A DNA stretch of 64,000 nt, taken from contig JAJDBM010000058.1 of NCBI GenBank assembly GCA_029261355.1, positions 62,001 to 126,000 of the forward strand, given 5' to 3'. Below are positions 1,759-53,418 of this stretch, one piece after another. The notes under the pieces are model-generated. The model was not told the origin of the DNA, ran no database searches, and saw only the letters and a list, made by a program, of their open reading frames with translations. The stretch is from Nitrospirales bacterium (GTDB taxonomy: Bacteria > Nitrospirota > Nitrospiria > Nitrospirales > UBA8639). How positions within the stretch are numbered: position 1 is the first letter of the stretch; the number at the start of each line of letters is the position of its first letter. The translations under genes and the position numbers were made by a program.

Positions 1759-1938
1759 ATTCTATCCTTGGACACCTTCCACAGTCGTCCTTCCTTGCGA
1801 TTTTGGCGTTCCCCTCGTGCTCACATCCCCATGTCAGCGCCTTATACATTACAGTTTTGTGGGTGTGGATTCCTTGCACTCACGAATAAATCCGAATTTT
1901 TAGAGATGTTCAATGCAGCAAATAGGCTGTTCTTGTGA

Positions 1939-29912: not shown

Positions 29913-30240
29913 GGCATCTCTCAAAACCGTCCTTTTCCGTGATTGCGGCGTCAGCCGCATTCTCAAATCAACCTGTATGTGCCTCTCGCTGGTTTGATCA
30001 CTTAGCGAATTTTGGGTGGTGCATGACGTCGTGGCAGTCCTTCTTGCCCGATTGAGCGTGATCTGGATTCGCCTCTAGCCGCGTTGAACAACGTGCGAAG
30101 CTTGAGATGGTGTCTGGCGCCGTAGCCATCCTTCTTGCTCGACTGAAAGTAATGTGGATACGTTAGAGACACTCCGGTTTTCCGTACGCAGCTTCCTGGC
30201 ATGCACACACACTTCTATCTTCATGCGTTCCTTAGTCATT
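29913..30240. repeat. Dispersed repeat, diverged relative of the MITE-like element at 51272
   Basis: Bases 29913-29950 match 51273-51310 at 30 of 38 positions without gaps, including GATTGCGGCGTCAGC, and similarity continues to about 30000. A second block near 30163-30200 (CCGGTTTTCCG, CAGCTTCCTGGCATGCACAC) matches the right half of the 51272 element. Between them sits extra sequence with an internal duplication: TCCTTCTTGC repeats at 30038-30071 and 30129-30162, 91 bp apart. No gene is supported here or in the rest of 29774-30393. Confidence 0.6.
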
Positions 30241-49181: not shown

Positions 49182-50768
49182 TTGTCACATAAAAAGATTA
49201 TTGATACTTGTCAATTAGGTGACGAATTAAGATTGTCAGGTGCTTCTAGTACTCAACGAGTAGAAAATCGAGAGACAAGTAATGTTATGGACATGTACAT
49301 GCAGGAGCTCAAATCTTTTCCAGTCCCCACGCATGAGACTCAAACTTGTCTTGCAAAGAATATTCAGAAATGGAAACGTCGACGTGATGTCCTCTTGTTC
49401 ACGAATCCGATGTGCGTCAATTGGTTATTTCAATGGTTCGTTCTGGTTGAGAACGGTAATTTGGTATTAAACGATATTATTGACTACCGAAGAGAAAATG
49501 TGACTCGGCAAAACATGAAACCCAAAGTCGATGAGACGAACAAATATGTTCAACGAAATAAACTCATAGGCAAACTGTCAGTTGCACTGAAGACATTTCT
49601 AGTCTTGGATGAAAAGCGCAGAAGAGGATGGTGTGTGCCCAAAAGACAGAAACAGGTCATGCGAGACTTTAAGAAGTCACGGCAAGAGATGTTGAGTCTC
49701 ATTCGCTTAGTAGCATTGAAGTCTCAAGCAGTTACACGTCTATCAGAAGAATTGAACGCGATATATCGTGAACTATCAGTCATCCACGAAACAGCGTTGA
49801 GTCTCTTTCAGAAACTGAACAGGCCTGTATCCTCCGAGTTAACATTCGAAGCTATGCAGGCTATGCTCAATGCCGCTCTGAAATCCCAAGAGATAACGTC
49901 CAGTTCACGAGTATTGATCGGAGAAGTAGAGATTTTCTTGAATCGGCTGAGATATCTCACCGAGCATGTCACGTACATGCCATTGGATGAGTTTAGTAAG
50001 GTGATTACTCAAGTTAATTACGCTGACAGACAGATGAACTGTACTAAGTGTGACTTAGTTCAATCCAATCAAAGATTGGTCCTGACATTAGCCAGGAAAT
50101 ATAGTGGAAAACATTTAGATTTAATGGATTTTATTCAAGAAGGAAATATCGGGCTCATTAAAGCCGCGGAACGGTTTGACTATCGACATGGGAGTAAGTT
50201 TAGTACCTACGCTGTCTGGTGGATTCGTCAGGCCATGACGAGGGCGTTAGAAGATCAGGACTCTGGAGTCAGAATACCTGTGCATATGATTCATGCTAAA
50301 CGCTTCATCCAACGTGCAAAGCGGAATCTGACACAACAATTGGGTAGGCACCCTTCCACCGTGGAATTGTCAAATTTTTCAGGAACTTCACTCACACATG
50401 TTCAACAGATAGGGGGGCTGATCCAAGAACCAGCTTCTTTTGACGCGTTGCCCTCGACCTCAGCTAGCTCACAGCCACCGTATCGTTGGCTTCAATCTAA
50501 TGATTCTAGTCCATTAGATAATGTTGTCTATCGGCAAATGCATGAACGGATTTTTCCAATTTTCGGAATATTAAACCCAAAAGAGCAAGACATTGTACGT
50601 CGCCATTATGGTTTAGGGGCTGAGATGGAGGAATCCGATCGTACCAAAATAGGAAAGACTTACGGCGTGACTCGTGAACGAATCCGGCAGATCGAAAATA
50701 AGGCATTTGAAAAACTACGGCGTTCCCGGTATGTCCGCGGGCTTCGGAGTTATGTCCAATCCGATTGA
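49182..50768 (+). CDS. RNA polymerase sigma-70 family factor, RpoD-like with a large non-conserved region
   Basis: A 528-residue sigma factor. Region 1.2 begins MDMYMQELKSFPVPTHETQ. It is followed by about 230 residues of basic, helical, poorly conserved sequence. Region 2 has NQRLVLTLARKYSGKHLDLM, DFIQEGNIGLIKAAERFDYR and FSTYAVWWIRQAMTRAL; region 3 and region 4 end with GVTRERIRQIENKAFEKLR. I chose TTG 49182 because AAAGGAG sits eight bases before it; an in-frame ATG at 49116 lies inside the leader hairpin. The size suggests a group 2-like factor rather than the primary RpoD. With a Pho-box-like promoter it may link phosphate starvation to a wider programme. Confidence 0.88.
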   Translation: MSHKKIIDTCQLGDELRLSGASSTQRVENRETSNVMDMYMQELKSFPVPTHETQTCLAKNIQKWKRRRDVLLFTNPMCVNWLFQWFVLVENGNLVLNDIIDYRRENVTRQNMKPKVDETNKYVQRNKLIGKLSVALKTFLVLDEKRRRGWCVPKRQKQVMRDFKKSRQEMLSLIRLVALKSQAVTRLSEELNAIYRELSVIHETALSLFQKLNRPVSSELTFEAMQAMLNAALKSQEITSSSRVLIGEVEIFLNRLRYLTEHVTYMPLDEFSKVITQVNYADRQMNCTKCDLVQSNQRLVLTLARKYSGKHLDLMDFIQEGNIGLIKAAERFDYRHGSKFSTYAVWWIRQAMTRALEDQDSGVRIPVHMIHAKRFIQRAKRNLTQQLGRHPSTVELSNFSGTSLTHVQQIGGLIQEPASFDALPSTSASSQPPYRWLQSNDSSPLDNVVYRQMHERIFPIFGILNPKEQDIVRRHYGLGAEMEESDRTKIGKTYGVTRERIRQIENKAFEKLRRSRYVRGLRSYVQSD

Positions 50769-50862
50769 GTCATGTCGTGATCATATCCCAATTCAGCATA
50801 TCAGGTCATGATTTGGCCTAGGCTATTTTAATAGGTCTCTTACTCTTGTTTATTCATTTTTA

Positions 50863-50909
50863 ATTAACGTGAATGTTACATGCCTCTAACACCTCAGCAA
50901 TTTTATCCT
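50863..50909 (+). promoter_or_regulatory. Weak Pho-box-like series upstream of the broken zinc-ribbon gene
   Basis: ATTAAC 50863, TGTTAC 50874 and TCTAAC 50885 are in 11-bp register, and TATCCT is at 50904-50909, 13 bp rather than 10 bp after the last unit. The phasing is good; the promoter spacing is not. Confidence 0.4.
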
Positions 50910-51040
50910 GATAGTCTGCAGTCCATGAACGGTTTTTGTTTGCAAGGGTTTCTCGATTATCGGGTCTTAAGTGAAACGTTCCATTGTTCTCTTATCGTGT
51001 TTAAGTCAGGCGCGAGGATGTGCTGGTAAGGAGCAAACTC

Positions 51041-51236
51041 ATGAGACTTTCAACGGTAAACCCTAGAGCTCTTTTATCTGATGGCATCTGTCCACAGTGC
51101 TGTGATGTCATGGTATTGGCTGACAGTACTGATGTTAATGAAGTAGGTAGATCGGAATATTGGATTCGGCTTGCGTTGCACGGAATGTGAGGCAGTGCGT
51201 GATCCATTTCTGAAGTACCTACATATCTCGCATTAA
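51041..51236 (+). pseudogene. Frameshifted small zinc-ribbon gene
   Basis: ATG 51041 after AAGGAG encodes MRLSTVNPRALLSDGICPQC and on to SEYW, then drifts and stops at 51190. From about 51165 the next frame gives GFGLRCTECEAVRDPF and stops at 51236. Joined across a one-base shift, the CPQC and CTEC knuckles would form a zinc ribbon of about 65 residues, similar in layout to the intact gene at 28462. Confidence 0.6.
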
Positions 51237-51271
51237 GACATATGGTCTTTCGAGTGTGAGCACTTTCTCTT

Positions 51272-51410
51272 GGGCTCCTCTAAAAACTGTCATCTTTCAT
51301 GATTGCGGCGTCAGCTACGTGCTCGAATCCACATGTATTCGCCCATGCACTGCGGTTTTGCACTCTCAGCTTCCTTGCCCTCACAAAAATGATAGTTTTT
51401 AGAGGTGCCC
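51272..51410. repeat. MITE-like element with 26-bp terminal inverted repeats
   Basis: Left end 51272-51297 and right end 51385-51410 are inverted repeats matching at 23 of 26 positions (left begins GGGCTCCTCTAAAAACTGTC; the right, inverted, begins GGGCACCTCTAAAAACTATC). Both ends are flanked by TCTT, a possible 4-bp target duplication. The 87-bp centre, GATTGCGGCGTCAGC onwards, has no open frame of note and is shared with the repeat at 29913. A non-autonomous mobile element is the simplest reading; its parent transposase is not in the window. Confidence 0.7.
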
Positions 51411-51449
51411 TCTTCTTTCTCTACATTATAGTTTAAAGTAATTAATACA

Positions 51450-51776
51450 GTGACGCTTCAAGCTTATGCCAAAAATGTCCTCTCTTTCCAGGAAAAAACA
51501 TTAAGTGTTTCTTGTCAGAGTGACATTGTCTGGTTGACACGAAAGGAATTTCAAATTTTATTACACTTGTATTCGGCTATCGGGTTCGTGTGTTCGCGAG
51601 AGGAACTTCTCGCTAAAGTATGGGGGCGTGATGTGTTTGTGGATTTAAGAACGATTGACCGACATGTGGTGCAGCTTCGCCGAAAAATAAAGAACCTGGG
51701 TCAATGGGAGCTTAGCCTGGATACTGTCTGGGGAGTTGGATATCGCCTTCGAAAATCTGGATCCCTCCGAAGTTAA
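51450..51776 (+). CDS. Stand-alone OmpR/PhoB-type winged-helix DNA-binding protein
   Basis: A 108-residue protein consisting only of a Trans_reg_C winged helix: VWLTRKEFQILLHLYSAIGF, CSREELLAKVWGRD, the recognition helix RTIDRHVVQLRRKIK, and the closing VWGVGYRLRKS. There is no receiver domain and none in another frame upstream. The start is a GTG without an obvious ribosome site. It precedes ppx by about 90 bp on the same strand. It may compete with or assist PhoB, or be the remnant of a response regulator cut off by the MITE-like element 39 bp upstream. Confidence 0.72.
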   Translation: MTLQAYAKNVLSFQEKTLSVSCQSDIVWLTRKEFQILLHLYSAIGFVCSREELLAKVWGRDVFVDLRTIDRHVVQLRRKIKNLGQWELSLDTVWGVGYRLRKSGSLRS

Positions 51777-51864
51777 TCAGTTGTCCTTCTTTTTTTTCAG
51801 TTTCAAGACCTTCCCCAAATTTTTTATCTCTGTTAGTGTAACACTTTTTATCAGAGGGACAATC

Positions 51865-53418
51865 ATGAGTAAGCTTGCCGTTATTGATATTGGGACAAAC
51901 TCCATTCATATGATTTTGGTCGAGATCGGCACGGATTTCTCTTGTAAAGTGATGGATCGCTTTAAAGATATGGTTCGATTGGGTGATGGCACCTTTATGA
52001 ATCGTTCACTGTCGGAAGCGGCCATGATGCGAGGAACAGATGCTCTTCGAAATTTGACGAACCTCGCTCGAAATAAAGGATTTGATCGAATTGTTGCCAC
52101 GGCGACTAGCGCCGTTCGTGAAGCAAAGAATGGAGGAGAGTTTCTTCAGCTTGTTGAAGCTGAGACAGGACTTGAGGTTCAAGTTATTACGGGAAAGGAA
52201 GAAGCACGATTGATCTATATTGGTGTCCGCAATGGTATGGAATTATCAAGGACGCCGTCGTTGATCGCCGATGTTGGGGGTGGATCTGTAGAAGTCATCG
52301 CCTGCAACCAAAAGCAAATGTTCTTTGGTCGCAGTCTGAAGCTTGGTACGATTCGCTTGAAAGATCTTTGTCTCAAGGAAGATCCTCCGACAAAGGGAAT
52401 GATTAAAGAACTTGAAAAGACGATCAACGCTGGACTAGATGCTGGTCTTAAATCTTCACGCGATTTCAAGTTTTCAAGTGTCGTGGCCACATCTGGAACT
52501 GCAGGAAATTTAACAGAGATCATTTATCTTCGTCGATCAGGGAAACCCGTTCCTCAACTCAACCTAGCAACGATTGGGATAACCGAAATTCGGGAGATTG
52601 AAGCAGAATTAGCATTAGGTGATGTGAATGCTCGACTTGCGATTCCAGGTCTTGATCCAAAGCGCGTCGATACCTTACTTCCTGGGACGATGTTTTTTCG
52701 ATGTCTGCTTGAGCATGCTGGTCACAAAACTTTAACGATTAGTGATAAAGCGCTTCGTGAAGGAGTGATCTTTGATTTTATTGAACGGCATCGAGCAGGA
52801 CTGCAGGCAGAGCAAGAAATCCCGAATACTCGACGACGAAATGTGATGTTGTTTGGACGGCGTTGCCATTATGAGGAGTCACATGCCATTCATGTGGCGA
52901 TGCTCTCGCTTCGGTTATTTGATGAATGTATTCCATTGCACGATCTTGGAGATCAAGAGCGTGAGTGGTTAGAATATGCTGCCTTACTTCATGACGTGGG
53001 ATACGTCATTCGGCGGCGACAGCATCATAAACATACTTATTATCTGATTAAGCATGGTGATCTTTCTGGTTTGACCGCCGAAGAGGTGAATGTTGTCGCG
53101 CTTGTAGCTCGCTATCATCGGAGGGCTGTGCCCAAGGATAAGCATGATGACTTCAAGTCATTATCAGGACGACAGAGGAAGATAGTTCGAATTCTTAGTG
53201 CGATTCTTCGTCTTGCAGATGGATTAGATCGGAGTCAATTTTCAGTCGTTCAGCAGGTTCATGTCTCAATAGGAGATATGATTGAACTTGAATTGACATG
53301 TACGTCTGACCCCGAACTTGAGCTGTGGGCGGCACGGAAGCGCGTCTCTCTATTCGAGAAAGTATTCCATCGGCCGGTAGAATTCCTGTGTGTCTATTCT
53401 AATGGGCAACAAGAGTAA
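51865..53418 (+). CDS. ppx: Exopolyphosphatase/guanosine pentaphosphatase Ppx/GppA with HD domain
   Basis: A 517-residue enzyme releasing phosphate from polyphosphate or hydrolysing pppGpp. Residues 1-300 have the actin-like ASKHA fold: AVIDIGTNSIHMILVEI, ATATSAVREAKNG, IADVGGGSVEVIAC and ATSGTAGNL. The C-terminal part (about 330-510) is an HD-type domain with AALLHDVGYVI and ILRLADGLDRSQFS. ATG 51865 follows GAGGGA; the longer frame from 51736 overlaps the preceding gene in another frame and is rejected. It balances the PPK1 encoded at 23533. Confidence 0.92.
   Translation: MSKLAVIDIGTNSIHMILVEIGTDFSCKVMDRFKDMVRLGDGTFMNRSLSEAAMMRGTDALRNLTNLARNKGFDRIVATATSAVREAKNGGEFLQLVEAETGLEVQVITGKEEARLIYIGVRNGMELSRTPSLIADVGGGSVEVIACNQKQMFFGRSLKLGTIRLKDLCLKEDPPTKGMIKELEKTINAGLDAGLKSSRDFKFSSVVATSGTAGNLTEIIYLRRSGKPVPQLNLATIGITEIREIEAELALGDVNARLAIPGLDPKRVDTLLPGTMFFRCLLEHAGHKTLTISDKALREGVIFDFIERHRAGLQAEQEIPNTRRRNVMLFGRRCHYEESHAIHVAMLSLRLFDECIPLHDLGDQEREWLEYAALLHDVGYVIRRRQHHKHTYYLIKHGDLSGLTAEEVNVVALVARYHRRAVPKDKHDDFKSLSGRQRKIVRILSAILRLADGLDRSQFSVVQQVHVSIGDMIELELTCTSDPELELWAARKRVSLFEKVFHRPVEFLCVYSNGQQE

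Follow-up and report, generated by a model that had tools for sequence, protein, structure and literature searches.

A family of MITEs in Nitrospirales with a probable IS5-family partner in related genomes

Introduction

Bacterial MITEs are recognized by their short length without a transposase gene, terminal inverted repeats, a target-site duplication, dispersal in multiple copies, ends in common with a transposase-bearing element, and the presence of filled and empty sites in relatives. This kind of element is well known, and several described families resemble the one considered here. BrickBuilt of Porphyromonas gingivalis is noncoding, multicopy, and intergenic, with IS5-like ends and predicted stem-loops, but it is much longer, contains 23-nt direct repeats, and is flanked by duplications of varying length (available portion of PMC4596501); the Nitrospirales MITE instead duplicates a fixed length of 4 bp and forms a predicted hairpin along its whole length. 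MITEAba12 of Acinetobacter likewise has the ends of a full insertion sequence (IS), its presumed mover, and has duplications in 40% of its copies. It differs in its length (113 bp), its 9-bp duplications, its ISAba12 partner, and the fact that its movement has actually been seen (available portion of PMC6382973). Correia elements of Neisseria are also short, present in many copies per genome, and classed as MITEs, but they are neisserial and 204 bp long, and the likeness drawn here is one of description (available portion of PMC10969869).

The particular family described below is absent from a limited search of the nonsubscription literature on Nitrospira, Nitrospirales, and Nitrospirota, although a 2024 survey of prokaryotic MITEs (PMC11602168) may list it. 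MITEs have been predicted on contigs carrying dioxane genes, which the accessible part of PMC12542641 does not tie to Nitrospira.

The element studied here lies at positions 51272 to 51410 of the window, i.e., the whole 64,000-nt stretch of DNA that was analyzed (G000:C58:62001-126000, where G000 is the window's own genome). We propose that it is a MITE, very probably mobilized by a DDE transposase of the IS5 family acting in trans, with duplication of a 4-bp target, as judged from comparison of copies, ends, and flanks among related genomes.

Structure of the element and distribution of its family

The copy at 51272 to 51410 (plus strand) is 139 bp long, compared to a family consensus of 141 bp, and matches the family profile over model positions 1 to 141 (103 bits; E value, 5.9e-31). 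It is thus short, and it contains no transposase gene; no open reading frame (ORF) of ≥70 amino acids in the ORF list overlaps it. The left terminal inverted repeat (51272 to 51297, plus strand) carries the family end GGGCACCTCTAAAAACC, the outer part of which is common to IS5-family elements of relatives, and the right repeat occupies 51385 to 51410 (minus strand). These 26-nt arms are complementary at 23 of 26 positions (88%), and only ∼0.0003 such arm pairs within 300 bp of one another would be expected in the window from its base composition. The element is flanked by the 4-bp sequence TCTT at 51268 to 51271 and again at 51411 to 51414 (both plus strand), a perfect target-site duplication. 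The limits, inverted ends, and TCTT flanks given by a sequence-only reading of this DNA were therefore exact.

Two further family copies bring the number in the window to three. One, at 1771 to 1909 (plus strand), is nearly full length (75 bits; model positions 2 to 139). The other, at 29913 to 30209 (plus strand), is a decayed copy of a longer form with a recognizable left half (29913 to 29991; 48 bits against the family profile), a degenerate right end with a weak match (30165 to 30209; 12 bits), and a different center; kinship between this repeat and the element at 51272 had already been suggested and is borne out by the profile match of the left half. The center of this decayed copy (29990 to 30165) holds two diverged direct repeats of the type CCTTCTTGC...GATCTGGATTCGCC, possibly another repeat family. 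By eye, stretches resembling this center are also present in the middle of locus L008 and, in G003 (L180), ahead of the winged-helix gene.

With the 139-bp sequence as the query, many diverged relatives were found in G000. Copies were counted with a sequence-only model (R2) built from 33 copies; a structure model (R1) was set aside for this purpose because its four pairs were spurious, deriving from a collapsed fold of the same number of copies. The profile returned 58 rows from G000 at an E value of ≤0.001, with 129 of the 497 to 1,058 first-look candidates per genome being scored. Six rows were the opposite strand of a copy already listed, as a consequence of the element being nearly palindromic, and in four cases a pair of rows represented the two ends of a single longer element. 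Merging these rows reduces the count to ∼48 distinct elements or fragments. The family is thus both dispersed and multicopy, as the sequence-only reading had anticipated in proposing a non-autonomous transposon family, which the copies, their shared ends, and element-free loci all support.

Family matches were found in 10 of 25 genomes searched, representing three genera of one family, and none were found in the other 15. Raw profile rows numbered 12, 5, 81, and 1 in the congeners G001, G002, G003, and G004, respectively; 47, 12, and 82 in G010, G015, and G017 of a second genus; and 14 and 6 in G041 and G044 of a third. These counts are inexact, given the limited number of candidates scored, and rows outside G000 were left unmerged. 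A search of 97 genomes with the consensus gave a match at an E value of ≤0.01 in 13, among them three genomes from outside the family (G055, G059, and G081) with one short match each. The end pattern had 46 matches at ≤3 mismatches, compared to 11 for a reversed control. Other length classes (98 to 106, 180 to 184, 230 to 233, and 322 to 326 bp) have similar ends of ∼60 to 70 bp and different centers.

Ends, target-site duplications, and probable partner insertion sequences

Full-length copies start with GGGCACCTCTAAAAACC and finish in its complement. For analysis of the flanks, 434 profile hits were collected, 147 were removed because they overlapped a better hit, and 197 rows met the length filter, yielding 104 distinct copies (92 of 139 to 143 bp and the others of 106 to 184 bp). 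Six had <300 bp of flank and were left out, so that flank and stop-codon counts refer to 98 copies. The flanking 4-mers were identical in 42 of these, alike at three of four positions in 28, and alike at two or fewer positions in 28; 10 bases further out, by comparison, none of the 98 pairs were identical and two were alike at three positions. Perfect duplications were most often TTAA (nine copies), followed by TTAT (five), and TCTT occurred once in the family, at 51272 to 51410. Correia elements duplicate a TA target. Membership in that group was rejected, since the duplications found here are of 4 bp, with TTAA and TTAT the commonest.

Ends of the MITE type also bound four transposase-bearing elements of 1,251 to 1,256 bp in relatives, two in G002 and one each in G010 and G041. 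One of the G002 elements (G002:C106:3-1257) encodes a 361-amino-acid transposase, but the contig stops within its left flank. In that of G041 (contig C212; L161:1433-2685), the frame is open over 370 codons and the flanks are atta/atta; that of G010 (contig C105; L160:1333-2588) has one in-frame TGA and the flanks taca/taca; and the second G002 element (contig C31; L119:1182-2432) has a broken frame and the flanks ttaa/ttat. The 361-amino-acid transposase scores 280.5 bits against NCBIfam transpos_IS5_4 (NF033581; cutoff, 140) and also matches Pfam DUF772 and DDE_Tnp_1; matches to transpos_IS5_4 above the cutoff were present in 4 of 10 genomes searched. The IS and the MITE have in common a terminal repeat of ∼16 bp and a 4-bp duplication. 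They differ in that the IS is 1.25 kb long and encodes a transposase, whereas the MITE is noncoding, 139 to 141 bp long, and has a different interior.

The expectation that the ends would match those of a full transposon was borne out in relatives only. In G000, the 361-amino-acid transposase had no match at an E value of ≤1e-10, and NF033581 had one hit of 48 bits, below the cutoff. None of the three DDE_Tnp_1 (PF01609) proteins of G000 was accompanied by these ends at ≤4 mismatches in the surrounding DNA examined; two of the three are encoded on contigs of ∼3.4 kb. The idea that G000 itself harbors an autonomous element was rejected, as none of these searches revealed one with these ends.

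The occurrence in relatives of ISs with the same ends and with 4-bp duplications indicates that the element at 51272 to 51410 is a MITE and that its movement most likely took place in trans. The transposase of the 1.25-kb IS would recognize the shared end of ∼16 to 17 bp, GGGCACCTCTAAAAAC(C), and move the MITE, and insertion would duplicate a 4-bp target, mostly rich in A+T (here TCTT). This group of ISs is the transposase source that we infer, and movement would be by cut-and-paste. Descent of the MITE from one particular IS by direct internal deletion would also account for the identity of the terminal 16 to 17 bp with all four ISs and for a duplication length equal to that of the three with readable flanks. 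By eye, however, subterminal sequences of IS and MITE diverge from approximately position 17 inward, and the other length classes share the subterminal sequence of the MITE without any being of transposase size. Such a deletion derivative is therefore unlikely; with interiors that are unlike beyond the ends, the MITE looks cross-mobilized.

Age of the copies and empty sites

Mean pairwise identity was 66.7% among 15 copies of G000, 90.2% among 19 copies of G003, and 96.4% among 14 copies of G017. No pair among the 15 G000 copies exceeded 73.8% identity, and the best match to the copy at 51272 to 51410 was a G003 copy (85.7%). Judged by sequence divergence, some relatives carry a young form of the family, whereas its copies in G000 are old. 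Old copies, together with the failure to find a matching transposase in G000, suggest that the family is no longer moving there and is probably stranded in this genome.

At the orthologous locus, four of four congeners (L177 to L180) had no family match at an E value of ≤1 beside the orthologous gene pair, in line with the idea that element-free loci would be found in relatives. Around the insertion point, the congener sequences are too diverged to be aligned, so this absence holds for the locus and not to the base, and the attempt to place the empty site precisely was dropped for the same reason. Elsewhere, a copy in G003 (G003:C12:76376-76517) lies between two genes with the flanks TAGA/TAGA and has an empty counterpart on contig C24 of G000, to which its flanks align at 339 of 513 bases across the junction. 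This was the one junction-spanning pair of filled and empty sites obtained when the two flanks of each copy were joined and compared with the available loci, which was done for 64 of 67 copies.

Hairpin decay and restored palindromes

The consensus folds over its full length, with predicted free energies of −74 (plus strand) and −83 (minus strand) kcal/mol, and the window copy at 51272 to 51410 folds with −53 (plus) and −57 (minus) kcal/mol. Long hairpins of this kind in single copies, and a stop codon directly preceding 20 of 98 copies, would be compatible with a repeated structured RNA or regulatory hairpin maintained by selection, with a function like that of REP or ERIC sequences. Against this, an Rfam scan of the window gave no match at the gathering score, and the consensus fold of 33 copies collapsed to −1.05 kcal/mol with four unrelated pairs; calculated separately, it was −0.6 for the 15 rows from G000 and −34.6 for the other 18. 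Each of the 15 G000 copies had lost 8 to 21 of the 47 to 50 consensus pairs and gained 0 to 3, a pattern of decay instead of compensation. The loss of pairs without compensation and the vanishing of the fold in the G000 set indicate that selection does not, in general, maintain the hairpin. General selection on the hairpin was thus rejected, as pairing decays with age, and a selected structured RNA is extremely improbable as an explanation of the family.

Two copies depart from this decay. The center of G000:C61:180735-180873 (L284 and L081) is a perfect 15-bp palindrome, and that of G000:C5:86484-86620 (L088) is a perfect 14-bp palindrome of a sequence unlike that of the former, whereas central palindromes in the other 102 of 104 copies measure 3 to 7. 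Random mutation of the consensus gave central palindromes of ≤9 in 5,000 trials, and palindromes of ≥14 arose in 4 of 20,000 draws in which sites were taken independently from the G000 copies, these two included. Template switching at a quasi-palindrome has been described in Escherichia coli (available portion of PMC7202029), as has the rewriting of RNA stems by template switching (available portion of PMC8794818). The two perfect palindromes are most simply explained by a putative rewriting of one arm from the other by this process.

Placement relative to genes and stop codons

Five of 98 copies lie inside an ORF of ≥90 amino acids, and 20 of 98 are situated 0 to 2 nt from a neighboring ORF's stop codon. 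Uniform intergenic sites would give 1.3 or 2.5 such contacts in two versions of the count, and intergenic sites with the same 4-mer would give 7.8 or 9.2 if a copy's own site is counted or 5.4 if it is left out. The contacts can stem largely from a TTAA-like target and selection against broken genes. An excess of two- to fourfold is left over, for which the null model may not account. When the target contains or abuts a stop codon, insertion would leave the neighboring gene whole and add a long 3′ hairpin. A real preference for stop codons, combined with occasional rewriting of the hairpin DNA by replication template switching, is a tentative and somewhat doubtful extension of these observations.

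Neighboring winged-helix and exopolyphosphatase genes

The element ends at 51410, close to a gene with a GTG start at 51450, as had been pointed out from the sequence; this gene (51450 to 51776, plus strand) encodes a stand-alone OmpR/PhoB-type winged-helix protein of 108 amino acids (Pfam Trans_reg_C, 76.1 bits). It is followed by a gene for a Ppx/GppA-type exopolyphosphatase of 517 amino acids (51865 to 53418, plus strand; Pfam Ppx-GppA, 182 bits), and a homologous winged-helix frame with 57 to 64% identity is located upstream of ppx in four congeners. Also kept in four congeners is an upstream box (50861 to 50917, plus strand) with direct repeats of the TTACA/CTAAC type ∼11 bp apart. A search of G000 and G003 for the box pattern, at ≤2 mismatches, gave a single site in each genome, both times at this locus, so that it looks gene specific; a wider Pho-regulon reading was rejected on the same grounds of one site per genome in two genomes. 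The box may be a regulatory site, possibly an OmpR/PhoB-type operator for the regulator paired with the exopolyphosphatase. Window positions 51040 to 51250, located between the MITE and the sigma factor gene, contain a short CPQC frame followed by LRCTEC in another frame, and this region resembles a small gene for a zinc-ribbon protein that a frameshift has disrupted.

The insertion might have changed regulation of the winged-helix and ppx genes by supplying a promoter, a terminator, or an attenuating leader hairpin. The MITE is placed between the conserved box and the gene start, with the reading frame intact; a leader transcript would hold its strong predicted hairpin, and there is a weak terminator-like site at 51401 to 51413. 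Scanning of positions 50700 to 51900, however, gave no plus-strand promoter site, the four predicted sites all being on the minus strand (2.2 expected), and two terminator-like sites, including the weak one, compared to 0.9 expected. In addition, the interval between box and gene varies in congeners without the element (∼217, 265, 317, and 595 bp, as estimated from aligned blocks), compared to 615 bp here. An altered regulation of these genes, which had been raised as a consequence of the insertion, is consequently rather improbable.

Implications

A defined MITE family and a probable IS5-type partner are now available for Nitrospirales. With genomes in which copies are young (90 to 96% mean identity) and a genome in which they are old (67%), it becomes possible to trace a bacterial MITE through its life cycle. 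Landings at stop codons bear on how such elements spread with little damage to genes, and decaying hairpins alongside two perfectly restored palindromes provide natural material for studies of template switching. If the suggested rewriting is real, the dispersed copies would record template-switching mutation in a lineage known here from genomes only.
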